From Arcobacter arenosus (GTDB taxonomy: Bacteria; Campylobacterota; Campylobacteria; Campylobacterales; Arcobacteraceae), in the NCBI RefSeq assembly GCF_005771535.1, contig NZ_VANU01000001.1, forward strand, positions 372,001-436,000: a DNA stretch of 64,000 nucleotides. Direction: 5' to 3'. Positions within the stretch are counted from its first letter, which is position 1; every line of letters starts with the position of its first letter. Shown in pieces: positions 41,775-64,000 of this stretch. Made by a program: the position numbers and the translations under genes. Below the pieces are notes generated by a model. It saw only the letters and a list, made by a program, of their open reading frames with translations. It had not been told where the DNA came from and did not search any database.

Positions 41775-44252
41775 TTATTCTCCAAATAATACATTTTCCT
41801 TTTGACCTATTATTCTTGAAGTAAATAAAGCAACTATCAACATAGTTAAAATCGGTATTAAAAGAAAATATAAAATTAAAACATCAGCCCTAAAATCCCA
41901 ATAAGATTCAAATAAAATATCACTAATAAAATATGAAGCTATACTTCCTAAGATGATTCCTAAAGAACTAGCAGAAAAAGAGATAAGTCCATATTCAATC
42001 AAAAAGGAATCTCTTATAACTTTATTTTTAACTCCAATCATCTTAAGTCTTAAGATATTGTTTTTTTGCAGATTCATTTGATATTGAATAATAATAAAAC
42101 TCATAAGTAATCCAATAACTATTGAATAAAAACTCATATTATCAGTTATCTTAGTTACATTTTTAACTAAACTAGCAAAGGTTTCAAACAAACTTTTTAC
42201 ATCTAAAATTGTTAAAGATGGGAAAGTATCTGTAAGTTTTAATAAAAGTTTTGAAGCATCATAATTCCCTTGGGAAATTGTTGCTAAAACTGTTTTAGGG
42301 GCATCATTTATAGCTCCATCTTGCATGATAAAAAAGAAATTTGGCGTAAATTCAATCCAGTTTACAGACCTAATATTTACAACTTTTGCTTCAAGTTCTA
42401 ATCCTAAAACATCAAATAAAATTGTGTCCTCAAGTTTTATTCCATTTCTTGAAGCATACCTTTGCTCAACACTTAACTCAATGGGCTTAGAAAAATCACT
42501 TGAATCATAAACTCCACTAAATGCCCTTCCCTCAATTATTGTTTCACTTTTCTTTAGTTGTTTTCTATAAGAGAGATTAACAGCTGATCTATTTGCTTCA
42601 TTTGATTTTTGTAAATTTTCACTGATATCATTATCATTAATTTTAATAACCCTTGCCCTTACCATTGGTGCAGTGTTTTCTAATTTTGCACCAAAACTAT
42701 CTAAGCTTTTTTGAATATCTTTTAATTGTTCCTCTTTTGCATCAATTACAAAAAATCTTGGTCGTTCATTTGCACTTTGTGTCAAAGCAGATGAAAGGGA
42801 AGAGCCAACTTGAGGAATTAAAGAGAAAAAAATTGTACATAATAAAATTGCAGTAAATAAAGTTAAAGAAGTTTTATTTTCCCTAGTGATATTTTTTAAT
42901 GCAAGGCTTAAAGAAAGGTTTTCCAAATGGCCTGAAAAATCAAATTTTCTTAGGACAAAAGAGCCTATTATAAAAAATAGTAAAATCAAAATTAAAACAG
43001 CTGATGCAAAAAATAAGCCTATGTTTTTACTTGGTGTTACAAAATGAGATATCACTAACAATAACATAATAAAAGGGATAAACCAAAAAACCATTTTAAA
43101 AAATTTTGTACTATTTCTTTGTAAAAGTGGTGTAATTAAAGGTATCCCAACACTTAAACTCACTAATACAAGCAAAAGTGCAGATTTTAAAAAAAATGAA
43201 AAGTCAAAAGAGAAATCAAATTCAAAACCAATTAGTTTTTGTACAATAGGAGCTACAAAATTTGCACTTAAAAGTATTAAAGAAAATACAATTATACTAG
43301 AGATTAAAATCAATACAAATAGATGACAAAGATACGTTAAAGAGATAGTTGATTTTTTTAATCCCAAATCATTTAATATATTTATATCCTCTTGATGTTT
43401 TTTTAAAAAACCAGAATATAAATAGATAAGTCCAACTAATCCTAGGAAAAATGATACCAAAGAAACTAGTGACAAAAAGTTTGTAATAAAGTTTAAAACC
43501 CTAAGAAGCCTATCTCTACCATCGTTAGGAGAAAGAGCTCGTAAGTTTTTATCAATAGTTTTTTCTAAATTGTTTTCTATCTCTTCTAATTTATCATTTG
43601 AAAAGTTTTCTTTAAATTGATAACTTAGTTTATATCTTGCAGTTGAGCCAAACTGTAAAAGACCTGTTGCATTTAAAGCCTCTTCACTTAAATAAATTTT
43701 TGGCATAAAACCACTAAAACTTACAGCTTTTAAACTATCTTCTAAAATCACTTTTTTGATTAGGAAATTCTCTTTCCCTATTTTTAAATTATCCCCTTTT
43801 TTTAAACCAAGTAATTCTAAAACCTCTTTATAAACCCAGACTTCATTTGATTTGGGTATAGAATTACCTTTGGGATAAATAGTTTTATCGTCAAACATTA
43901 CCCCACCATAATAAGGAAATGCTTCATTTATTTTTACAAGCTCCATTAGTCTAGCTCTTTTACCAGAACTTACCATACTAACAGTTGATATTCCTTGGGA
44001 AAAGTTTTTTATTTCAGGAAGTTTTGTTCTTATATCTTCTATTTGTTCATCTGTAATTGCAAATCTTGAATTAACAGTTAAATCAGCACCCAATAAACTC
44101 TTTGCCTTACTATCTAATGAGCTATCAACACTTTGCTTAAAAAATTGTAAATATGACAAAGAAGCAATAGCCAAACAAAAGTTCAAAATAAAAATAATAG
44201 AAAAGGACTTTGATCTTTTTAAAGCTTTTGATACAAGTTCTAAAATTAACAT
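41775..44252 (-). CDS. ybbP: ABC permease, YbbP/FtsX family
   Basis: 825-aa large permease. An N-terminal helix and a periplasmic domain (LLGADLTVNSRFAITDEQIE) lead to two blocks of FtsX-type helices separated by further helices and a second periplasmic domain. Length and layout match YbbP, partner of the ATPase YbbA. It overlaps the ATPase gene by 7 bp. The substrate is unproven; release of hydrophobic compounds or lipoproteins from the membrane is usually proposed. With TesA upstream, lipid handling is likely. Confidence 0.9.
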   Translation of the reverse strand: MLILELVSKALKRSKSFSIIFILNFCLAIASLSYLQFFKQSVDSSLDSKAKSLLGADLTVNSRFAITDEQIEDIRTKLPEIKNFSQGISTVSMVSSGKRARLMELVKINEAFPYYGGVMFDDKTIYPKGNSIPKSNEVWVYKEVLELLGLKKGDNLKIGKENFLIKKVILEDSLKAVSFSGFMPKIYLSEEALNATGLLQFGSTARYKLSYQFKENFSNDKLEEIENNLEKTIDKNLRALSPNDGRDRLLRVLNFITNFLSLVSLVSFFLGLVGLIYLYSGFLKKHQEDINILNDLGLKKSTISLTYLCHLFVLILISSIIVFSLILLSANFVAPIVQKLIGFEFDFSFDFSFFLKSALLLVLVSLSVGIPLITPLLQRNSTKFFKMVFWFIPFIMLLLVISHFVTPSKNIGLFFASAVLILILLFFIIGSFVLRKFDFSGHLENLSLSLALKNITRENKTSLTLFTAILLCTIFFSLIPQVGSSLSSALTQSANERPRFFVIDAKEEQLKDIQKSLDSFGAKLENTAPMVRARVIKINDNDISENLQKSNEANRSAVNLSYRKQLKKSETIIEGRAFSGVYDSSDFSKPIELSVEQRYASRNGIKLEDTILFDVLGLELEAKVVNIRSVNWIEFTPNFFFIMQDGAINDAPKTVLATISQGNYDASKLLLKLTDTFPSLTILDVKSLFETFASLVKNVTKITDNMSFYSIVIGLLMSFIIIQYQMNLQKNNILRLKMIGVKNKVIRDSFLIEYGLISFSASSLGIILGSIASYFISDILFESYWDFRADVLILYFLLIPILTMLIVALFTSRIIGQKENVLFGE

Positions 44253-44908
44253 AAATTTAAAACTCCGTGGGCTAACTGATAAGTTTTTTCACATCTTGCT
44301 GCAACATCCTTTGAGTGAGTTACTAAAATCAAGGTTGTATTGTTTTGCTTAATCAATTCAAAAAGCTTATCCATAACAGCAATACCTGTTTCTTCATCTA
44401 AATTACCACTTGGTTCATCAGCAAGTATGATTTTTGGATTATGAATTAATGCCCTTGCAATTGCAACACGTTGTTTTTCTCCTCCACTTAATTGAGAGGG
44501 GATATGATTTAATCTATGTTCCAAACCAACTGCTTTTAATAATTCGATAGCTTTTTCTTTTGGATTTGAAATACCACAAACCTTTGCAGGAAGCATTACA
44601 TTTTCTAAAGCATTTAAATATGAAACTAGATGAAAATTTTGAAAAATGAATCCAATATTTGAGGCTCTAAAGTCATTTAATTCATTTTCTTGTAAATCAT
44701 TGTAAGAGATGTTATTTAAAACTATATCTCCACTATCTGCTTTTATAATACCAGAAACTAATGATAGAAAAGTTGATTTTCCTGCTCCTGATTTTCCCAT
44801 AATAGCAACTTGTTCCCCCTCTTTTAAAGAAAAATTTAAATCATTATAAATCTCTATTTTCTCATCACCTTGTTGGTATGTTTTTTTTAATGATTTTAAT
44901 TCTAGCAT
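44246..44908 (-). CDS. ybbA: ABC transporter ATPase, YbbA family
   Basis: 220 aa of the LolD/MacB-like ATPase group. The Walker A is GKSGAGKST near residue 40, the signature LSGGEQ- is read here as LSGGEKQRVAIARAL, Walker B is IILADEPSGNLD, and the H-loop His is in LVTHSKDV. The ATG at 44908 has GGGGAGA upstream and overlaps the stop of the tesA gene (TAATG). An upstream TTG at 44923 is less likely. It works with the FtsX-type permease that follows. Confidence 0.93.
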   Translation of the reverse strand: MLELKSLKKTYQQGDEKIEIYNDLNFSLKEGEQVAIMGKSGAGKSTFLSLVSGIIKADSGDIVLNNISYNDLQENELNDFRASNIGFIFQNFHLVSYLNALENVMLPAKVCGISNPKEKAIELLKAVGLEHRLNHIPSQLSGGEKQRVAIARALIHNPKIILADEPSGNLDEETGIAVMDKLFELIKQNNTTLILVTHSKDVAARCEKTYQLAHGVLNLC

Positions 44909-45522
44909 TATAGTTCTCCCCAAATCTCTTTTTTTAAAAATTCAAAAACATTTTTGGCAATAACTTTATGCCCTTTTGTATTTGGATGGATTCCATCACT
45001 TTGATTAAATTCTTGAACTCCAGCTACATCTAAAAGTAAAAAAGGCATAAATTTTAATTTATATTTTTCTTGAACACTTTTAAACATATTTTTGAATTTT
45101 TCTGAATATTCTTCTCCATAATTTGGAGGAATTAACATACCAGCAAGTAATACTTTTGCCCCTGTATTTTGGGCAGTTTCAATAATTTTCTCAAGATTTT
45201 TCTGACTTTGACTTAAATTTAGTCCCCTAAGTCCATCATTTGCACCAAGGGCAATAAATACCACATCAGGTTTTTTTCTTAAATACCATTTTAAACGTGA
45301 AAGTGCATCACTCGTAGTTGAGCCACTGACTCCACCATTTATAATCTCAACATCTTTTTTAAGTTTAATTTGAATCATATCTTCAACAATTGAGGGGTAT
45401 GCTTCTTTCTTACTAACTCCAAGTCCTTCAGTTAATGAATCACCTAAAAAAAGAATTGTTGATTCTTTTGCATTTGCACCATAAATAAATATTATAAATA
45501 AAACTAAAATAATTTTTTTCAT
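44908..45522 (-). CDS. tesA: Periplasmic SGNH esterase/thioesterase TesA
   Basis: 204 aa with a signal peptide (about 1-18, cut after ANA). All four SGNH blocks are present: FLGDSLTEG (Ser near 28), NGGVSGST, GANDG and DGIHPN with the catalytic Asp-His. It corresponds to E. coli TesA, an arylesterase, lysophospholipase and thioesterase. The gene directly precedes ybbA-ybbP, the same set found together in E. coli (where tesA is divergent), so a joint role in lipid clearance is plausible. Confidence 0.94.
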   Translation of the reverse strand: MKKIILVLFIIFIYGANAKESTILFLGDSLTEGLGVSKKEAYPSIVEDMIQIKLKKDVEIINGGVSGSTTSDALSRLKWYLRKKPDVVFIALGANDGLRGLNLSQSQKNLEKIIETAQNTGAKVLLAGMLIPPNYGEEYSEKFKNMFKSVQEKYKLKFMPFLLLDVAGVQEFNQSDGIHPNTKGHKVIAKNVFEFLKKEIWGEL

Positions 45523-56310: not shown

Positions 56311-57600
56311 TTAATGGCTATTTTTATCTTTTGTTTGTAGTTCACTAAAGTTCTTAATAATATCAACACCATACTTCTCTCTTAAAGTTTGTAAACTTTG
56401 TGTTAGCTTTCTTTTTTTAATATCAGTTTCATATTCAAAGATATCAGAAACAAAACTGTTTTTATTAGCAAAATTTGAAACAGTAAGGTTTAATTGTATA
56501 ACTCCATGACTCATGTGAATATCATTTTTTTTAAAAAGTTCTACCATAGCTTTTTTAAAATCAGTTTCATTAAATATTCTATTAACATTTATGTAATCTT
56601 TTGATTTAATATTTGAATCATATTTTATTTTTATATGGTATGTTTGTGGATTTACATCAGCTTTTTTAACTAAAAAGCAAAGATAACGACTTAAAATCAT
56701 AACTCTTCTTTTTAACTCTTCCCTATCATAAATACAATCAAAAGTTCTTCCTATTCCAATAGATTTTTTATCTCTATGTTCAATAATATTACTATCATTT
56801 TCACCAACAATTCTATTATAAAGTTCAATTCCAGGCTTTTTCCAAGAAAAGAACAAAGCTTTTCTTCTTTCAATATCACCTAATGTTTTTATCCCATAAC
56901 CTTTAAGTCTTTTTTGATATCCCTTCCCTATTCCAGGAAACTCTTCTATTGGAATATCTTTTATAAAACTCTTCATATGCTCTTTAGAAACATACTTTAT
57001 TCCATCAGGTTTTGCAAACTCAGTCATAAGTTTTGAAAGATATTTAGAATGGGCTATGCCTATTGAAACAGGTAAACCTAATTCATTTTTAATTCTTTTT
57101 TTAATTTTAGTGGCAAAATCTACAATCTCATCTTTGTTTATATACCCCCTTAAATCACCAAAAAATTCATCAATGGAAAACTGTTCAACTAGAGGAATCT
57201 CATTTTTTAAAATAACTAACATCTTATGGGAAAGTTCATGATATAAAGGGTAGTTTGGAGGAACCATTTTTAGATGAGGACATAATCTTAAAGCTTCATT
57301 TACACTCATGGCAGTTTTAACGCCATATCCCCTTGCTTCATAAGAACAAGTTGTTATAATACCTCTAATTCTTCCATCTTTATCAACAAAATAGTCATTA
57401 AAGGTTTTTTCACCCTCATTTGTTAATATAGTACTTACAAAGGCACCACTATTTTCACTTATTTTTCGAATCTCTTTTTTATCTGAAAAGATATTTAAGT
57501 TGCTTCTTCCTCCAACTGCAACGGGAATACCTTTTAGATTTTTATCTTTGATTCTATGGGCTGATACAAAAAAACAATCAATATCAATATGGATAAACAT
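56311..57600 (-). CDS. Y-family DNA polymerase (DinB-like)
   Basis: 429-aa translesion DNA polymerase. The catalytic carboxylates are visible in HIDIDCFFVS (Asp5, Asp7) and FSIDEFFGD (Asp and Glu near 142-143). The HhH region (IEEFPGIGKGYQKRLKGYGI) and little-finger domain follow. A stretch of about 40 residues (about 38-78) separates VAVGG from the YEARGYGV motif, longer than in typical Pol IV. The group is sometimes labelled 'DNA polymerase Y family' in Campylobacterota. It is a single gene with palindrome and repeat elements upstream. Confidence 0.92.
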   Translation of the reverse strand: MFIHIDIDCFFVSAHRIKDKNLKGIPVAVGGRSNLNIFSDKKEIRKISENSGAFVSTILTNEGEKTFNDYFVDKDGRIRGIITTCSYEARGYGVKTAMSVNEALRLCPHLKMVPPNYPLYHELSHKMLVILKNEIPLVEQFSIDEFFGDLRGYINKDEIVDFATKIKKRIKNELGLPVSIGIAHSKYLSKLMTEFAKPDGIKYVSKEHMKSFIKDIPIEEFPGIGKGYQKRLKGYGIKTLGDIERRKALFFSWKKPGIELYNRIVGENDSNIIEHRDKKSIGIGRTFDCIYDREELKRRVMILSRYLCFLVKKADVNPQTYHIKIKYDSNIKSKDYINVNRIFNETDFKKAMVELFKKNDIHMSHGVIQLNLTVSNFANKNSFVSDIFEYETDIKKRKLTQSLQTLREKYGVDIIKNFSELQTKDKNSH

Positions 57601-57650
57601 TTAAATAAAGTCCTATTTTATAAGGATTTTAAAAGTTATTTCTTTAATAG

Positions 57651-57668
57651 TACCGTATTAAATACCGT
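57651..57668. promoter_or_regulatory. TACCGT direct repeat near the polymerase promoter
   Basis: TACCGT occurs at 57651-57656 and 57663-57668, 12 bp apart, 50-70 bp upstream of the polymerase start. A tandem hexamer at this distance could be an activator site. Confidence 0.4.
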
Positions 57669-57727
57669 TAAAAGCTTTTCCTTATATGTAATTATTATAT
57701 ACTTTTTGAAGAGTAAATATTAAAAAC

Positions 57728-57742
57728 ATTACAAATTGTAAT
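57728..57742. promoter_or_regulatory. 15-bp palindrome upstream of the polymerase
   Basis: ATTACAA-A-TTGTAAT, perfect 7-1-7. Size fits a Fur-family or other dimeric regulator but it is not a Fur or Zur core seen elsewhere in this window. Confidence 0.45.
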
Positions 57743-57862
57743 ATTAATATTGTAGTTAAATATTTAAATTTTCAATCATCATTTTTCAGTCCCTTTTTTT
57801 AATGATATAAAAATAAACTTATTCTTAGAAAAAATTATAGAAATCAATATGAATTTTTTTAA

Positions 57863-58411
57863 CTAATAATTTAAATGTATATTTCCATGAAATTTAGAAC
57901 TAAGTGCATTTTTTCTATTTATTTCTTTTATATCTTTATCAAGAATTTTTTCTGAAATTTCTTTTGCCTTTATAAATGACATAACTTCTCCTCCAAACTC
58001 TTTTTTAAATTCTATAGCATCTTTTTTTTCACTAAAAGATATCTTACTTACAGTCGACATTGTTCCTTTTACCCTACTTCCTACAACATACCACATTTTT
58101 GTAGCATCTTTAAAAATTTCATTTTTTGCATCTACTGCTAAGTATTGTTCAATAGGAAAACCTTTTTCCCTCTCAGCTTTAATTAAATCTCTTATTGAGC
58201 AAAACTGAATATATTTTCCATTTTTAAGCTTAACTGCGTGATTTGTTTTTCCAAACACTGATAGCTTCATTCCACACTCTGGACAAATGTCAGAATTTTT
58301 TCCCTTTTGTAGAAGCTTAATATTTTTTGTATATTTCTGAAAGTTTTGTGCAAAACTTATTGTTTGTAAAAAACAAATAAAAGATATAATTAATAAAAAG
58401 TTTTTTTTCAT
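57863..58411 (-). CDS. nosL: NosL-family copper-binding protein (last in operon)
   Basis: 182 aa with a signal peptide (about 1-21). The NosL copper-ligand motif CPECGM (Cys43, Cys46, Met48) is intact, and FCSIRDL (second Cys part) follows. NosL delivers Cu(I) to the N2O reductase. The later MWYVVGSRVKGTMS segment is shared with the other NosL-like genes of this operon. The ATG at 58411 (or 58414) follows AAAGGG. It ends the operon, 10 bp after the membrane-protein gene. Confidence 0.85.
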   Translation of the reverse strand: MKKNFLLIISFICFLQTISFAQNFQKYTKNIKLLQKGKNSDICPECGMKLSVFGKTNHAVKLKNGKYIQFCSIRDLIKAEREKGFPIEQYLAVDAKNEIFKDATKMWYVVGSRVKGTMSTVSKISFSEKKDAIEFKKEFGGEVMSFIKAKEISEKILDKDIKEINRKNALSSKFHGNIHLNY

Positions 58412-58421
58412 CATTTTCCCT

Positions 58422-59381
58422 TTAAAGCCACACACCATTTTTTATATAGTATATAATCGGATAGAAACTCAAGATTACTATTAGTAAAGTATTTGCTATT
58501 ATTGATATTTTGTAAAAGCTTTTCTTTGGTGCTTTTTTTAATAAATGAAGAATAAACACATTTACTGCCATTGCTGCACCTATAAAAAACAATATATAGA
58601 TTAGATATCCCACATAATAATAGTCACTTTGAAGTAGACAAAAAGGGCATTTATGCGTAGGCAGTTCATATACATAAGAAGAGAAAAATCTAATCAAAGT
58701 TTGAATTCCTACAAACATAAAAGCAAGAGAAAAGATACTAAATAATATCGCTTTTTTAAATAGTCCAAATATTAAACTTGCAATAAATATAGAGTAAAAT
58801 AAAATTAATAGTAAAGATTCATTTTGCATCAAAGAAGCAGTTCCAGCAGAACTTTGTTCAAATACAACACTGCAACAGTGAACAGGAACATCAGTACTTA
58901 TTTGCATAAAATGATAAACTTCCATAAAAAGCTCAATTCCTATTAGAATACAAATAGGCTGAAATATTATAAACTTTAATTTTGTGTATGGATAATCTAC
59001 TTCATTAATATCAAGAGAGTGAAGTAATAACCAAGCAAATAAACCAAATAAAATCAACAATTTAATCATTAAAAGTTCTGGTCCAAACTCTGTAGCACTG
59101 ACAATTCCAGCTGCACACATTGCACCTGGCACTATTTCTGAAATGGTATCCATAGTCCAAATGTAAAATAGGAAAAGTAGAAGCTTTACAATTAAAGCGA
59201 ATTTTATAATTGTAGCAACTAAATAACTCTTTTTATTGAGGTTGTACTGCTTTGAAATTGTTGACTTTGGGTTAAAATATAATGATATTTTAACTGCCCA
59301 GAAGAGTCCAACTAAGCATAAAAGAAAAATTATAGATTCAACAATCAAAACACTTTGAATATATGGAGAGAGTAAAATCAT
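58422..59381 (-). CDS. Eight-helix membrane protein of the NosL operon
   Basis: 319 aa with about eight helices and short loops. Periplasmic or loop cysteines occur as GAMCAAG (near 93), VHCCSVV (near 169) and HKCPFCLLQ (near 244), which could bind copper or thiols. It overlaps the ABC ATPase gene by 4 bp. I do not recognise a family, but its position between ATPase and NosL genes implies a role in the same process. Confidence 0.75.
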   Translation of the reverse strand: MILLSPYIQSVLIVESIIFLLCLVGLFWAVKISLYFNPKSTISKQYNLNKKSYLVATIIKFALIVKLLLFLFYIWTMDTISEIVPGAMCAAGIVSATEFGPELLMIKLLILFGLFAWLLLHSLDINEVDYPYTKLKFIIFQPICILIGIELFMEVYHFMQISTDVPVHCCSVVFEQSSAGTASLMQNESLLLILFYSIFIASLIFGLFKKAILFSIFSLAFMFVGIQTLIRFFSSYVYELPTHKCPFCLLQSDYYYVGYLIYILFFIGAAMAVNVFILHLLKKAPKKSFYKISIIANTLLIVILSFYPIIYYIKNGVWL

Positions 59382-60037
59382 AATAATTTCCCATTTTTCA
59401 TTTCAAAACAAGTCTCATAGTTTCCCCATTCTAATAATAGTGGATCATGGGTTGCAATAACAAGTGTTTTCTCCTGATTAATTATCTTTTCAAAATAATC
59501 TAATATCTTAATACTTAGGGCTTGGTCTAAATTTGCTGTTGGCTCATCAGCCAGAATTAATTTTGGGTCATTAATAAGAGCCCTAATAACTGCAACTCTT
59601 TGTTGTTCACCACCTGAAAGATGTTTAACTTCAACATTTGTTTTTGACGAAATATTAAATAACTCTAGAAGTTCCATGGCCTCTTCAAGTTTATCAATAT
59701 CATCAGGTAAAGTTGGAAGAAGTACATTTTCAAGAACTGTTAGAGTAGAAATCAAATTAAATTTTTGAAAGATAAATCCAATATTATTACGTCTAAATCT
59801 ACTTGCAAAATTTTCAGGATATTGGGAAATCGCTTCTCCATCAATTAAGATTTCTCCCTTTGATGGTTGATATAGTCCTGCAAACAAAGATAATAAAGTA
59901 CTTTTCCCACTACCACTAATTCCTTTAAGTAATGAAACTTCACCTTTTTTTACATGTAATGAAATATCATCTAAAGCAGTAAAGGCTTTTGGTGTTCCTT
60001 CATTAAATATTTTTGAAACATTTTTAACTTGAATCAT
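59378..60037 (-). CDS. ABC transporter ATPase, LolD/MacB type
   Basis: 219 aa. Walker A GISGSGKSTLL (near 43), signature LSGGEQQRVAVIRAL (near 138), Walker B LILADEPTANLD (near 158) and H-loop THDP. It resembles ATPases that pair with FtsX-type permeases, which act by mechanotransmission on periplasmic substrates rather than by moving them across the membrane. Both neighbours overlap it by 4 bp, so it works with the permease directly upstream. Confidence 0.92.
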   Translation of the reverse strand: MIQVKNVSKIFNEGTPKAFTALDDISLHVKKGEVSLLKGISGSGKSTLLSLFAGLYQPSKGEILIDGEAISQYPENFASRFRRNNIGFIFQKFNLISTLTVLENVLLPTLPDDIDKLEEAMELLELFNISSKTNVEVKHLSGGEQQRVAVIRALINDPKLILADEPTANLDQALSIKILDYFEKIINQEKTLVIATHDPLLLEWGNYETCFEMKNGKLL

Positions 60038-61203
60038 CTTATTACCTCTCCAGCATCTTCAACTGCTGCTTTCCAAGATGGAATAATTGATGCTGCTAAA
60101 TAAAGGGGTACAGTTGTAAAAAATAGTAGTGCAATCATTTTTACATCTAATACAAAAACTAAATCAAAAGGTTGTTTTAAATTAGAAAATCCAGTAAATA
60201 CATATTTTAAAATTGGTGCATCTAAAATGAAAACATAGAAGATTGCTAAACTAACACCTACAAAAAAAGATGAGAGAGAAAGTATTAAAGCTTCAGTTAG
60301 TTTATGTCTAATAATATGATCAATCTCCCAACCTAAAGCTTTCAAAACACCTATTTCTTGCTTTTCTTCACTCCTAAGTCCACTTGCTTTATCATAAAGT
60401 ATAATGGCAAAGGTAATAAATGTAGTAATAAGTAGAGCTAAAAACCAACCACTTTTATAATCATATAAAATTTGATGACCCTTAATAATATCAGCTTTTG
60501 TAATAACCCTTAGACTTGGATATTCAAAAGCAATTTTTGCTGCTATCATTTCTACTTCTTCAGGATTAGCTACACTTATTACAGCATCTGTAAAACTTCC
60601 CTCTTCAATATCTAATAAGTTTCTAGCTATTTGTGTAGGAATTAAGATAATATCATTACTTTCCATTTGTGTATCTGCTTTGAAAGTTCCGCCAAGTTTC
60701 ATTTTAAGATAAGTTCCATCATTTTGTTTAAAGCTTACATACTCCTGCATATCATATTTAAACAATAACTCTTTTAGATTTTTTGATATCATCATTGAAG
60801 GAATAGCATCATCACTTTCTGGGAAATCTTCTGCAATTTTTGTTAGGCTTTTTTTATACTGTTCTTCAAAAGCAGTAACACCTACAATAGAGGCATAAAT
60901 ATTTGCATCTTTTAAGTAGTATTGTCCCCAAATACGCCCCATTACATTACTTATTCCTTTGATATCCCACAGTTGCTCAACTATTTCTTCATCAAAAGGC
61001 TTTACTTTTCCACCTTTATAGTTTTGTACAATTATATCTGGTAGACCTTTTGACAGAGTTTTTAGTTCATGATTTAAAGAATTGCTAATCATCATTCCTG
61101 AAGATAAAAGCCAAACTAAAATCATAAAAATTAAAGCTATAGAAATATTTTTCATCCCAAATCGTTTTAAAGAACGTAAGGTGTAATCAAATATTGTATT
61201 CAT
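60034..61203 (-). CDS. ABC permease, FtsX/MacB type
   Basis: 389 aa. An N-terminal helix (about 20-42), a periplasmic domain of about 200 residues (LSKGLPDIIVQNYKGGKV...) and three C-terminal helices with the FtsX signature EIGVLKALGWE near 293. It forms a complex with the ATPase. The layout matches Lol/MacB-type devices acting on lipoproteins or periplasmic proteins. It lies 1 bp after the small 93-aa gene. Confidence 0.9.
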   Translation of the reverse strand: MNTIFDYTLRSLKRFGMKNISIALIFMILVWLLSSGMMISNSLNHELKTLSKGLPDIIVQNYKGGKVKPFDEEIVEQLWDIKGISNVMGRIWGQYYLKDANIYASIVGVTAFEEQYKKSLTKIAEDFPESDDAIPSMMISKNLKELLFKYDMQEYVSFKQNDGTYLKMKLGGTFKADTQMESNDIILIPTQIARNLLDIEEGSFTDAVISVANPEEVEMIAAKIAFEYPSLRVITKADIIKGHQILYDYKSGWFLALLITTFITFAIILYDKASGLRSEEKQEIGVLKALGWEIDHIIRHKLTEALILSLSSFFVGVSLAIFYVFILDAPILKYVFTGFSNLKQPFDLVFVLDVKMIALLFFTTVPLYLAASIIPSWKAAVEDAGEVIR

Positions 61204-61204
61204 T

Positions 61205-61486
61205 TTACCTCGCCTTTAAAGAAGATTGTTGAATAAATGTTCCAAGACCAAGGGGTTCAATTCCAGGATGCAAAGAATATAAATCATTCACTACACTTAA
61301 TGATCTATGTCTTAGGTATGGAACATTACTATTAAATGCTAAGTCAGGCATTCCACTTAATTTGACAAAAAGCACTTTACTCTCATTGTCTTGTATTTTT
61401 GAGGATAAAAACACAAATTGAAATATTAAAGAAGCAATTACTACACTAACAAAACAGTAGAAAATTTTTTTTGAACTTATTCGCAT
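61205..61486 (-). CDS. Small anchored periplasmic protein of the NosL operon
   Basis: 93 aa. One N-terminal helix (about 9-28) is followed by an extracytoplasmic domain with LSGMPDLAFNSNVPYLRHRS and LHPGIEPLGLG. Methionine and two histidines could be copper ligands, but this is not established. The gene overlaps the upstream NosL-like gene by 10 bp and ends 1 bp before the permease gene. No family is recognised. Confidence 0.7.
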   Translation of the reverse strand: MRISSKKIFYCFVSVVIASLIFQFVFLSSKIQDNESKVLFVKLSGMPDLAFNSNVPYLRHRSLSVVNDLYSLHPGIEPLGLGTFIQQSSLKAR

Positions 61487-62613
61487 GTTTCTAGGCCATC
61501 TAATTTACATATTAATTCTGAAGTAATTTCACTAAACTTAAAAATTGAAGTTCCTTGATGATCTTTTAAAAAAGTTTTTGCATCTTCTTCATATTTAAAA
61601 GGTATTAATTCATTTCCCATAGGGCCTAAAGTATCACTCCCAACTACATAAAAAGCCTCTTTCCCATCAATTGCATATTGAGTGTAATAATCTGTTACTA
61701 ACAGCTTTTGCTCTATCATCTTTTCGTGTTCATTATATTTTTTAGGATTATGAACAAATTTAATCATATCTTTAACCCCATCAAAAACATAATAGTGCTT
61801 ATGCTCATGTTTTACAAACTCTAGTTTAGCTGCCCATTTTGGATATTTATAGACAAACATTCCACAAACTGGACATTTATCCTCTTTTCTTACTTCTACT
61901 ATTTTATTAACTGCTCTATTTTCAATACGCTTAACATTCCATAGATATAAGGCTACAGAATGGAGTTGATTTTCCTTAAGTTTTTTACACTGATTTTTTA
62001 AATCTGCTTTTAAGTAATTAATCCAATTATAGACTTTTAAATCAATCTCTTTATTACTACATTTGGCCTCATAAATCTTTTTGCCTTTAAGATATTCTCT
62101 TTGCATTTTTTTTGGATTTGAAGGTTTCATATCTTCTTTTAAACTCTTTTCTGCTTCTGCAAAAGCTTCTTCAAAACTTACAATATTACCACCATTTTTA
62201 GATACAAATATCTTTGCATCTTCTTTTTTTGCAAAGGCTAGTTTACTTATCTTACTTTTTGTTCCTTTTACGTTACTCCCCATTACATAATATGCATCTT
62301 TTGTGGGAATTAATTTATTAGAACTTACATCTACTACTTTAGAATTTTGAAGCTTTACATGGTTTTCCTCTACATCAAAGACTAAGTAACTAAGGGAAGC
62401 ATATTGTGTTGGTTTACCATCATAGTCATGGGCAGTATGAGAAGTTTTATAATTTTTATAAAGTTCTTCACCTGAAACTGCACACCAAGTTTTTATATCT
62501 TCTTTTTGTACAAGCTCTATATCTTTTTTAACTGTTTTATTAAAATCACTTCCTTGACTCACTCCTATTAATAGAAACTGTATAATTAAGGTACTTAGTA
62601 ATAGTTTTTTCAT
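61477..62613 (-). CDS. Two-domain NosL-like protein
   Basis: 378 aa. A signal peptide (about 1-21) precedes two NosL-like domains. In domain 1 the motif is degenerate (CAVSGE, second Cys to Ser, Met to Glu, and FCS-type YAS). A middle part (KGKKIYEAKC...VALYLWNVKR) resembles a class I cytochrome c without the CxxCH. Domain 2 has an intact CPVCGMFVYKYPKW near residue 247. The ATG at 62613 has GAGGAA 7 nt upstream; an earlier in-frame start at 62661 would mask the signal peptide. Domain 1 with the tail matches the 240-aa gene and domain 2 matches the 162-aa gene upstream. Confidence 0.87.
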   Translation of the reverse strand: MKKLLLSTLIIQFLLIGVSQGSDFNKTVKKDIELVQKEDIKTWCAVSGEELYKNYKTSHTAHDYDGKPTQYASLSYLVFDVEENHVKLQNSKVVDVSSNKLIPTKDAYYVMGSNVKGTKSKISKLAFAKKEDAKIFVSKNGGNIVSFEEAFAEAEKSLKEDMKPSNPKKMQREYLKGKKIYEAKCSNKEIDLKVYNWINYLKADLKNQCKKLKENQLHSVALYLWNVKRIENRAVNKIVEVRKEDKCPVCGMFVYKYPKWAAKLEFVKHEHKHYYVFDGVKDMIKFVHNPKKYNEHEKMIEQKLLVTDYYTQYAIDGKEAFYVVGSDTLGPMGNELIPFKYEEDAKTFLKDHQGTSIFKFSEITSELICKLDGLETCE

Positions 62614-62637
62614 AATAGTATTCCTCAAAATGCTGAT

Positions 62638-62670
62638 AAAAGAGATGAGAAGATTAGACACATCTCTTTT
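62638..62670 (-). terminator. Hairpin between two NosL-like genes
   Basis: A 10-bp inverted repeat (AAAAGAGATG / CATCTCTTTT) with a 13-nt loop lies between the 240-aa and the two-domain gene. It could be a terminator or an attenuator that lowers expression of the downstream ABC genes. Confidence 0.6.
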
Positions 62671-62677
62671 TTACTTT

Positions 62678-63400
62678 TTATAAAGATTTACCTAATCTTT
62701 TAATTTCCCATAGATATAGAGTCACTGCTTGAAGTTTTTTCATCTTAATTGAATCATCACATATTTTATTTTTTATAATGTCAGTTTTTAGCTCATTGAT
62801 TCTTTTATAAGAAGAAAAATCTTTAATTGGTCTACAATTTGATTTATAAAGTTTTTTTCCCATTGGGTACATCATTTTATTCTTCTTCATATTTACCATT
62901 GCAATATCACTATTTAATGACTCTTTTGCACTAGCTATCATTTCATCATATAAAACAATTTTTCCACCAAATTTAGAATTAAAAGCTTTTGCATCATCTT
63001 TTGATGCAAATGCATACTTACTAATCTTTGACATAGTTCCAGGAGCTTTACTTCCTAATACATAATATGCCGTTTTAGCATCAATAATTTTTTCAGTTTT
63101 TGCATCTACTACAACATGCTTATTTCCCTCATGTGCATGTTTCCCATCAACAAGAACACATCGTATAGAACAGTATTGTCTATTATCTTTAGACTTTTTT
63201 GCCACAACTCCATGACTAGTTTTATAATTGTGATTAATAGACATTGCACATACTGGACAAAAACCTTTTTCTGCACCTTCTTGGATTAATTCAGGTTTCC
63301 CTGAAGCAACTTTACTAAACTTTTTTTCCATATCTTTAGCAAGAGAGGATGAAGAAAATAACAATAATCCCATTACAAATATGATTAACAATTTTTTCAT
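62678..63400 (-). CDS. nosL: NosL-like protein with cytochrome-c-like tail
   Basis: 240 aa. A signal peptide (about 1-21) precedes a NosL domain with FCPVCAM (Cys48, Cys51, Met53) and YCSIRCVLVDG. The C-terminal part (about 180-240; MGKKLYKSNCRPIKD...QAVTLYLWEIKR) resembles a cytochrome c sequence but lacks CxxCH, so it is not haem-binding in the usual way. It follows the 162-aa gene by 29 bp. It probably receives or passes Cu(I). Confidence 0.87.
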   Translation of the reverse strand: MKKLLIIFVMGLLLFSSSSLAKDMEKKFSKVASGKPELIQEGAEKGFCPVCAMSINHNYKTSHGVVAKKSKDNRQYCSIRCVLVDGKHAHEGNKHVVVDAKTEKIIDAKTAYYVLGSKAPGTMSKISKYAFASKDDAKAFNSKFGGKIVLYDEMIASAKESLNSDIAMVNMKKNKMMYPMGKKLYKSNCRPIKDFSSYKRINELKTDIIKNKICDDSIKMKKLQAVTLYLWEIKRLGKSL

Positions 63401-63429
63401 AATTAACTCCTTTAAAACTTTATGAATTA

Positions 63430-63918
63430 TTAAATGTCTCCATTTAATAATTCAATCAAGCCTTTTTTCATTTCTTTAAATGAAAAAATTCTTTTACCAT
63501 TATTACTTTTTGCAAATGATTCGGCATCATCATAGCTTTCAAATGCTGGTAAATCATCCCCTGCTGGTGAAATTTTATTACTTCCATATACATAAAAAGC
63601 ACCCCTAGCATTTATTACTTTGTGAGTTTTAAAGTCTGTTACAATAATCTCTTTTAATTTTGTTGAATCTTTGGTATTTGCTTCTTCCCATTTTTCAGGA
63701 TTAAAATAAAATTCAAACATAGATTTGGGACTTACAAAATAAAATTCTTTAGAGTCTTTATTTACAACCTTTGAAACCCAAGCAGGATTTTTATAAACAT
63801 ACATTTTTCTAACTAAACTTTTTGTTTCTTTGTCAAAATTCATAGAGTACGTAACTTCTGCATTAAGAGCAATAAAGCCAAACATACAACTTAATATAAT
63901 TGTCGATAATTTTTTCAT
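63430..63918 (-). CDS. NosL-like protein with degenerate copper motif
   Basis: 162 aa. The signal peptide (about 1-20) is followed by the NosL fold without its first motif: where others have CPVCGMF, this reads SLVRKMY (Cys to Ser34 and Arg37, Met39 kept). The remaining pattern (YVYKNPAW, SNKISPAGDDLPAF) follows the second domain of the 378-aa protein. The frame is intact, so it is not a pseudogene. It lies 9 bp after the stop of the incomplete upstream gene. Confidence 0.85.
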   Translation of the reverse strand: MKKLSTIILSCMFGFIALNAEVTYSMNFDKETKSLVRKMYVYKNPAWVSKVVNKDSKEFYFVSPKSMFEFYFNPEKWEEANTKDSTKLKEIIVTDFKTHKVINARGAFYVYGSNKISPAGDDLPAFESYDDAESFAKSNNGKRIFSFKEMKKGLIELLNGDI

Positions 63919-63927
63919 GAATATCCT

Positions 63928-64000
63928 TTAAACTAAATCTTTTTTCGCAAATATAAAATAACCTAAAAAGGCAAAAACTAATCCTAAAATAATTGGGTAA
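63928..64000 (-). CDS. C-terminal end of a membrane protein, probably NosY
   Basis: Only the last 23 codons are in the window (ILGLVFAFLGYFIFAKKDLV end). The sequence is a single membrane helix with a Lys-Lys-Asp end, as in an ABC-2-type permease terminus. In Campylobacterota the nos cluster ends F-Y-L, so the permease NosY directly before NosL genes is the likely identity. This is inference from position; the rest lies to the right of the window. Confidence 0.5.
   Translation of the reverse strand, partial: YPIILGLVFAFLGYFIFAKKDLV

Follow-up and report, generated by a model that had tools for sequence, protein, structure and literature searches.

A NosL-associated ABC transporter cassette with an eight-helix Cys-containing membrane protein in the nos operon of Arcobacter arenosus, a candidate copper-supply module

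The closest described system is NosDFY with NosL, in which NosL, a Cu(I) chaperone, works beside an ATP-binding cassette (ABC) transporter to assemble copper sites in the periplasm. A single Cu(I) is bound by NosL, and the Cys of its CXM motif is the likely ligand (PMC6530538). In the nos cluster of Sulfurospirillum cavolei, a five-gene insertion with an ABC permease, an ATPase and hypothetical proteins lies between nosL and nosY; the sections of that report consulted give these genes no function and do not connect them with mcc or with other copper enzymes (PMC4794192). In Shewanella oneidensis, the sir genes for an octaheme sulfite reductase (SO0476-SO0484) are followed by nosL (SO0485) and nosY (SO0488), so that NosL and an ABC copper system adjoin the reductase genes (PMC5955497, in part). 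Here we describe a cassette with NosL-family, ABC transporter and unclassified membrane proteins in a 64,000-nucleotide stretch of Arcobacter arenosus, hereafter the window (contig NZ_VANU01000001.1; G000:C1:372001-436000 of a 3.13 Mb genome). The cassette is probably a general copper-supply helper and not a part made for NosZ alone. We give about even credence to the reading that it is an ATP-driven periplasmic Cu(I)-handling module for several cuproenzymes, analogous and not homologous to NosDFY.

Eight open reading frames (ORFs) were identified on the minus strand at 57863-63918 by ORF translation together with Pfam and NCBIfam scans. They follow the 3' end of nosY (63928..64000, minus strand). 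The gene next to nosY (63430..63918) encodes a 162-aa NosL-family protein with a signal peptide (PF05573, 4.2e-19). It is followed by a gene (62678..63400) for a 240-aa NosL-family protein that carries a CPVCAM motif and is predicted to be soluble and periplasmic (PF05573, 3.4e-16). A double-domain NosL is encoded at 61477..62661, where the likely start is an internal ATG near 62613 (PF05573, 3.2e-42, two stretches). The next gene (61205..61486) encodes a 93-aa protein with one N-terminal transmembrane anchor and the motif PDLA...Y.RHR; it has no Pfam match, and its NCBIfam matches stay at chance level (E 0.16). An FtsX/LolC/MacB-type ABC permease (60034..61203; PF02687, 5.9e-9), a LolD/MacB-type ABC ATPase (59378..60037; ABC_tran match, with LolD as best NCBIfam model under its cut-off) and a 319-aa membrane protein of no recognised family (58422..59381) come after it. 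The last gene (57863..58438) encodes a 191-aa NosL-family protein with a CPECGM motif, predicted soluble and periplasmic, with a likely start at an internal ATG near 58411 (PF05573, 7.1e-17). From nosY to this gene, the spacings are +9, +29, +16, -10, +1, -4, -4 and -17 bp, of which the last hinges on a start codon that is possibly too early. ORFs, Pfam matches and the AlphaFold2 (AF2) model of the eight-helix protein agree with the gene set given in the original prediction.

The cassette core consists of the double NosL, the small anchored protein, the permease, the ATPase and the eight-helix protein. A second copy with the same five-gene order was found on contig C5 of the same genome (L011, 8101-12363), between genes that we named purH-like and ammonium-transporter-like. 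No nos genes besides NosL were found within the 19 kb read around it. Identity between the window and C5 copies is 50% for the double NosL, 35% for the small protein, 43% for the permease, 48% for the ATPase and 41% for the eight-helix protein. One more permease-like match in this genome is partial (C2, 4.0e-9). We compared 142 loci, 62 from the genomes of the phylum search or from the A. arenosus genome itself and 80 named loci out of at least 536 confirmed stretches. In 138 of the 142 loci, the ATPase gene stands immediately ahead of the eight-helix gene, and the order permease, ATPase, eight-helix protein is intact in 129. The small gene was recognised at its position in 91 loci, some NosL gene lies within the stretch in 124, and in 78 a NosL gene is the first one recognised past the eight-helix gene. 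A 4-bp overlap is the commonest spacing (72 and 83 loci). The order in S. diekertiae (L051, L162) is of the same kind as the published S. cavolei insertion. The combined system had been thought not to be well described; its ABC part is already in print, and the consulted sections of that report assign it no function (PMC4794192). A literature search, with most subscription papers outside its reach, returned no text tying the set to mcc, cbb3 or copper generally.

The distribution of the cassette was examined in 298 Campylobacterota genomes of at least 90% completeness. The eight-helix protein is present in 107 genomes and nosZ in 89, after a weak partial eight-helix match in G264 and a weak NosZ match in G266 (both 1.1e-4) were dropped from counts of 108 and 90. 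Both occur in 68 genomes, the eight-helix protein only in 39, nosZ only in 21 and neither in 170 (Fisher p 3e-21, kinship ignored). NosL was found in 130 genomes; 23 of these lack the eight-helix protein, and 19 of the 23 have nosZ. The cassette tracks NosL rather than NosZ, because NosL is present in 107/107 genomes with the eight-helix protein while nosZ is absent from 39 of them. The original prediction was that the ABC device handles NosL proteins or copper for NosZ. The gene context and the constant company of NosL favor copper handling with NosL; NosZ as the single client conflicts with the 39 genomes, with the nosZ genomes that lack the protein, with the second A. arenosus copy and with the mccA link presented below. 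The wide occurrence of these genes in genomes without nosZ speaks against a NosZ-only role and not against copper delivery generally.

Many copies lie downstream of genes for a CcsA1-type heme lyase (~900 aa), an NrfD-like protein and an Fe-S protein (our names). In genome G167, most likely Wolinella succinogenes, mccA and mccB precede these three genes (L103). Matches to MccA, the heme-copper sulfite reductase, were found in 85 genomes and were split at 1000 bits into 48 genomes above this value, here called Wolinella-type, and 37 genomes with a second type at 590-685 bits. All 48 Wolinella-type genomes contain the eight-helix protein. In 47 of them, mccA and the eight-helix gene share a strand, and the latter lies 8412-11789 bp downstream; in the 48th, G182, mccA is at a contig end. 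This tie provides a direct genetic handle on MccA copper insertion. MccA is listed as a copper enzyme (PMC7558416, in part) and heme attachment to MccA-type enzymes is described (PMC6976685, in part); no account of the MccA copper insertion route was found in the literature passages searched. Two lineages appear to have NosL and an ABC system beside a sulfite reductase, with different ABC types. The Shewanella system is of the NosDFY type, and by analogy the cassette may be its substitute in the mcc clusters of Campylobacterota, with equivalent roles.

In G056 (L050), the cassette belongs to a cluster of the mcc type, together with NrfD-like and CcsA1-like genes, and this genome has no MccA match at E<=1e-30. 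In G167, nosZ matches at C1:870545-874421 fall in two separate frames, i.e., the gene is interrupted.

To place the copies relative to one another, the loci were labelled nos (35), mcc (16) or other (91), and trees of the eight-helix protein were compared with these labels. The 97-sequence tree leaves out 'other' loci with less than 8 kb on either side (among them the C5 copy), identical sequences, and L062, L128 and L184, which have long or uncertain branches. In this tree, all 15 mcc-linked rows cluster together (support 100/97), and the nos labels need 15 changes, 14 of them forced by well-supported branches. The 142-row tree needs one change for mcc and 21 for nos (16 forced), with some 'other' labels reflecting short contigs. 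In both trees, the window copy groups with copies that are not near nos genes. In the 142-row tree, the C5 copy groups with copies that relatives carry near nos genes; in G292 the two are separated by other genes, and in L173 nosY comes immediately after the copy. The scatter of nos-linked copies therefore indicates that the cassette entered or left nos neighbourhoods several times. The nosZ genomes contain 43 copies without mcc linkage; 16 of these are no more than 20 kb away from nosZ, where position alone would predict 0.85 (for a genome size of 2.2 Mb, with kinship disregarded). The nosZ-copy pairs within 20 kb, one of which involves an mcc-linked copy, are on the same strand in 14 of 17 cases.

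Single copies adjoin ccoG, ccoG-ccoH-SCO or cus-like genes, and some follow TonB-system genes. The second copy in G167 (L062) follows ccoG (TIGR02745, 559 bits vs a cut-off of 317) and a TehA/SLAC1-type gene. The L128 copy is followed by ccoG (426 bits) and by genes for a FixH/CcoH protein, a DsbD_2 protein and SCO1/SenC, in a genome with no nosZ match; its contig is titled Ignavibacteriales and belongs to a metagenome bin, so that the host is uncertain. L142, on a contig titled Acidobacteria, comes from a genome with a nosZ match. In L088-L091, the cassette comes after ExbB and ExbD genes (by similarity), and TonB in L088 was confirmed by its model. At least one of the copper- or TonB-related neighbours sought is present in 28 of the 91 'other', 21 of the 35 nos-labelled and none of the 16 mcc-labelled loci, counts that come without a random-window control.

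A third NosL locus in A. arenosus (L012, 2410-14194; G000:C6) contains genes for a response regulator, a histidine kinase, a TonB receptor, a DsbD_2 protein, a 907-aa polyferredoxin-NosL fusion and a NapH-like ferredoxin protein. ExbB, ExbD and a TonB-like gene are found further on. This locus could serve copper uptake and reduction.

All four NosL-family proteins of the window match PF05573 above its cut-off (60-144 bits vs 24), and the two stretches in one of them bring the number of domain-sized units to five. The CxM motif is present in the 191-aa and 240-aa proteins and in the second domain of the double NosL, and is missing from the first domain of the double NosL and from the 162-aa protein. 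Of 114 cassette-type NosL ORFs, 107 contain one or more CxxCxM motifs. Inspection by eye revealed plain signal peptides and no lipobox in the four window NosL proteins; a lipobox is present in the 152-aa NosL encoded between nosF and nosY. The 162-aa type adjoining nosY lacks CxM in 29 of 30 proteins, the window protein included, so it may be a structural rather than a copper-carrying NosL.

The AF2 model of the eight-helix protein, built with 40 sequences, has a mean predicted local distance difference test score (pLDDT) of 90.6 and a predicted template modeling score (pTM) of 0.85. It contains eight transmembrane-length helices (6-35, 43-80, 100-125, 133-160, 188-207, 211-238, 257-280 and 287-315). 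Cys89, Cys169, Cys170, His243, Cys245 and Cys248 are invariant both in 32 and in 40 sequences. These residues are located in the loops after helices 2, 4 and 6, on one face of the model. This face is probably periplasmic, because Lys residues cluster at the opposite helix ends. The 319-aa protein has no Pfam or NCBIfam match, and a search of the PDB by sequence gave nothing at E<=10. Neither the whole protein nor its C-terminal half had a Foldseek match at E<=0.001. With VIA-align, the best match of the whole protein has a Z of 12.5 and a root mean square deviation (rmsd) of 3.3 over 147 aligned residues, within residues 1-168; for the C-terminal half, the corresponding values are 10.0, 3.9 and 116. 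By look, these matches are generic helix bundles. As a conserved Cys-rich membrane family matched here by no Pfam or NCBIfam model, the protein is an added candidate for copper trafficking.

The permease matches the FtsX domain (PF02687) with 36.5 bits against a cut-off of 25.5, and MacB_PCD with 26.4 against 27, just under the cut-off. It has four hydrophobic segments and a predicted periplasmic domain. Neither A. arenosus copy contains a Cys, and no Cys, His or Met is invariant among 24 sequences; a copper route through the permease is therefore unlikely. A mechanical role is more likely by analogy with the type VII class. In the ATPase, Walker A, LSGGE, Walker B and the H-loop are intact. 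LolCDE, MacB and FtsEX (type VII) resemble the pair in the permease profile, the four hydrophobic segments and the separate LolD-like ATPase. Unlike these systems, the cassette has a single permease gene and is tied to NosL and an unclassified membrane protein. The eight window genes include no LolA/LolB, MacA or TolC partner, and hence no periplasmic adaptor such as MacAB-TolC has. Compared with NosDFY, the cassette combines an FtsX-domain permease of LolC/MacB type with an ATPase of LolD type and has no NosD; nosD, nosF and nosY are separate genes of the window operon.

Starting from the observed gene order, protein families, distribution, linkage, tree, residue conservation and predicted helix count, we propose the following mode of action. 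The NosL proteins would act as periplasmic Cu(I) carriers. Copper would not pass through the ABC pair itself, which is probably a permease dimer with two ATPases. By a presumed mechanical coupling, ATP hydrolysis in the cytoplasm would set off a movement at the periplasmic face. In the eight-helix protein, the invariant Cys residues and the His, if periplasmic and copper-binding, may form a membrane copper or thiol site. The movement would drive hand-over of Cu(I) between this protein and NosL, with a presumed direction of transfer. Cu(I) would then reach the apo-enzymes: NosZ in nos clusters, MccA in mcc clusters and perhaps cbb3 oxidase where ccoG or SCO genes are nearby. The working mode would be like that of NosDFY with NosL, built from another kind of ABC transporter. 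In some Campylobacterota, the cassette may set how well N2O reductase, which destroys the greenhouse gas nitrous oxide, is assembled at low copper. A bolder proposal, which we regard as tentative and somewhat doubtful, is that the cassette represents a class of ATP-driven copper-insertion machine that has not been described before and that includes a new membrane copper/thiol family. Such a machine would be swapped among N2O reductase, heme-copper sulfite reductase and cbb3 oxidase, and would replace NosDFY in assembly of the MccA heme-copper site.

Several observations weigh against a copper module for several cuproenzymes. The eight-helix protein is missing from 21 of the 89 nosZ genomes, and 27 of the 107 genomes with this protein have neither nosZ nor a Wolinella-type mccA. 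None of the further copper- or TonB-related neighbours sought was found in 63 of the 91 'other' and 16 of the 16 mcc loci, and nosZ and the cassette occupy opposite strands in 3 of the 17 pairs no more than 20 kb apart. No NosL gene lies within the stretch in 18 of the 142 loci; NosL is not always adjacent to the cassette, since 11 of these stretches span 17.7-21 kb. The second MccA type also belongs here. Wolinella MccA was aligned with 20 of the other 47 first-type and 20 of the 37 second-type proteins, and the free Cys 411 and 507 (own numbering), presumably the copper ligands 399 and 495 of MccA, are kept in 20/20 second-type and 20/20 first-type sequences. Only 5 of the 37 second-type genomes have the eight-helix protein, and none of these 5 has its gene within 20 kb of the second-type MccA gene on one contig. 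The cassette therefore accompanies the mccABCD type and not the Cys pair as such. The idea that an MccA-type copper site always needs the cassette was rejected, as the second type keeps both free Cys without it. Six second-type neighbourhoods (L225-L230) contain no cassette, no mccB-D match and no NosL; there the MccA gene is adjoined by a gene for a 670-727-aa protein. The second type also has a longer heme motif (CX17CH in most of the 20 aligned), and most of its members do not align with the N-terminal ~66 residues of Wolinella MccA.

The eight-helix protein could also act as a thiol enzyme rather than provide a copper site, which is a further point against the copper module. It would then be a quinone- or thioredoxin-linked membrane thiol oxidoreductase that keeps the NosL Cys reduced or oxidises partners, with the ABC pair moving a partner on or off. 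A CPxC motif shortly before a transmembrane helix, with the CC pair and a further Cys on the same face, is consistent with this role, and 17 of the 91 'other' loci have a gene for a DsbD_2-like membrane protein no more than 600 bp away (similarity 55-66%; the Pfam scan for DsbD_2 covered L048, L128 and the C6 protein of A. arenosus). DsbB and VKOR likewise have a CxxC near the start of a transmembrane helix and loop cysteines; the cassette protein differs from them in its eight helices and has no sequence match. A Pfam scan of 40 members found no family in more than 2 of them, the best match (E 0.0088) being of an unrelated kind. No confident fold match was found for the whole protein or its C-terminal half, and DsbB and VKOR are not among the structural matches, which excludes nothing. 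On balance, a thiol-redox helper seems unlikely. Still more improbable is a copper-tolerance role, with removal or sequestration of surplus copper or silver from the periplasm. At one locus (L060), CusA/CusB/TolC-like genes run divergently from the cassette and a two-component system lies beside it, although most of these neighbours are under model cut-offs, only a general adaptor model passes, and the CusA-like gene is cut by the stretch end. The recurring core contains no adaptor or outer-membrane partner, and the mccA linkage (47 of 48 genomes) and repeated placement in nos clusters fit enzyme maturation better.

Two narrower roles were rejected, and we consider both very improbable. An ABC unit that handles NosL or copper for NosZ only would suit the window, where the cassette is contiguous with nosY and in the operon direction, and the nos linkage that changed several times on the tree. 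It is contradicted by the distribution, with 39 of 107 eight-helix genomes lacking nosZ, by the stronger mcc linkage and by the second A. arenosus copy away from nos genes. A Lol-like release, in which the ABC pair extracts a membrane-anchored NosL or a lipoprotein from the inner membrane, has an equally slight chance. The permease profile does match LolC over its length (profile positions 30-391, 1.3e-6), and a NosL gene commonly comes next after the eight-helix gene. Both proteins are under the Lol equivalog cut-offs, the permease far so (TIGR02212, 18.4 bits vs 362.45), and the ATPase with LolD as its best NCBIfam model (TIGR02211, 190.1 bits vs 307.75). The window NosL proteins lack a lipobox by eye, and such a release leaves the eight-helix Cys protein unexplained. 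The Cu(I)-handling module for several cuproenzymes keeps the even chance given above.

The genes in the window had been placed after a likely nosY end, and this was borne out past the window, where the whole nosY gene lies at 6928-7812 of L009 and the operon runs to nosZ. In the same direction follow nosY, a Tat/lipobox NosL gene, nosF, nosH, nosC2, nosC1, nosG, nosD, nosB and nosZ, names that we assigned from order and sequence similarity. They form the remainder of a clade II nos cluster with its own complete nosDFY. A single long operon through nosZ is likely, because no gap between neighbouring genes exceeds 163 bp. Promoter-like sites (32 vs 37.0 in shuffles) and terminator-like sites (3 vs 1.9) at 57500-64000 are at shuffle level. 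Elsewhere in the window (41775-45522), genes for an 825-aa double FtsX-like permease, a LolD-like ATPase and a TesA-like lipase are consecutive, a trio that we take to resemble the YbbAP-TesA unit.

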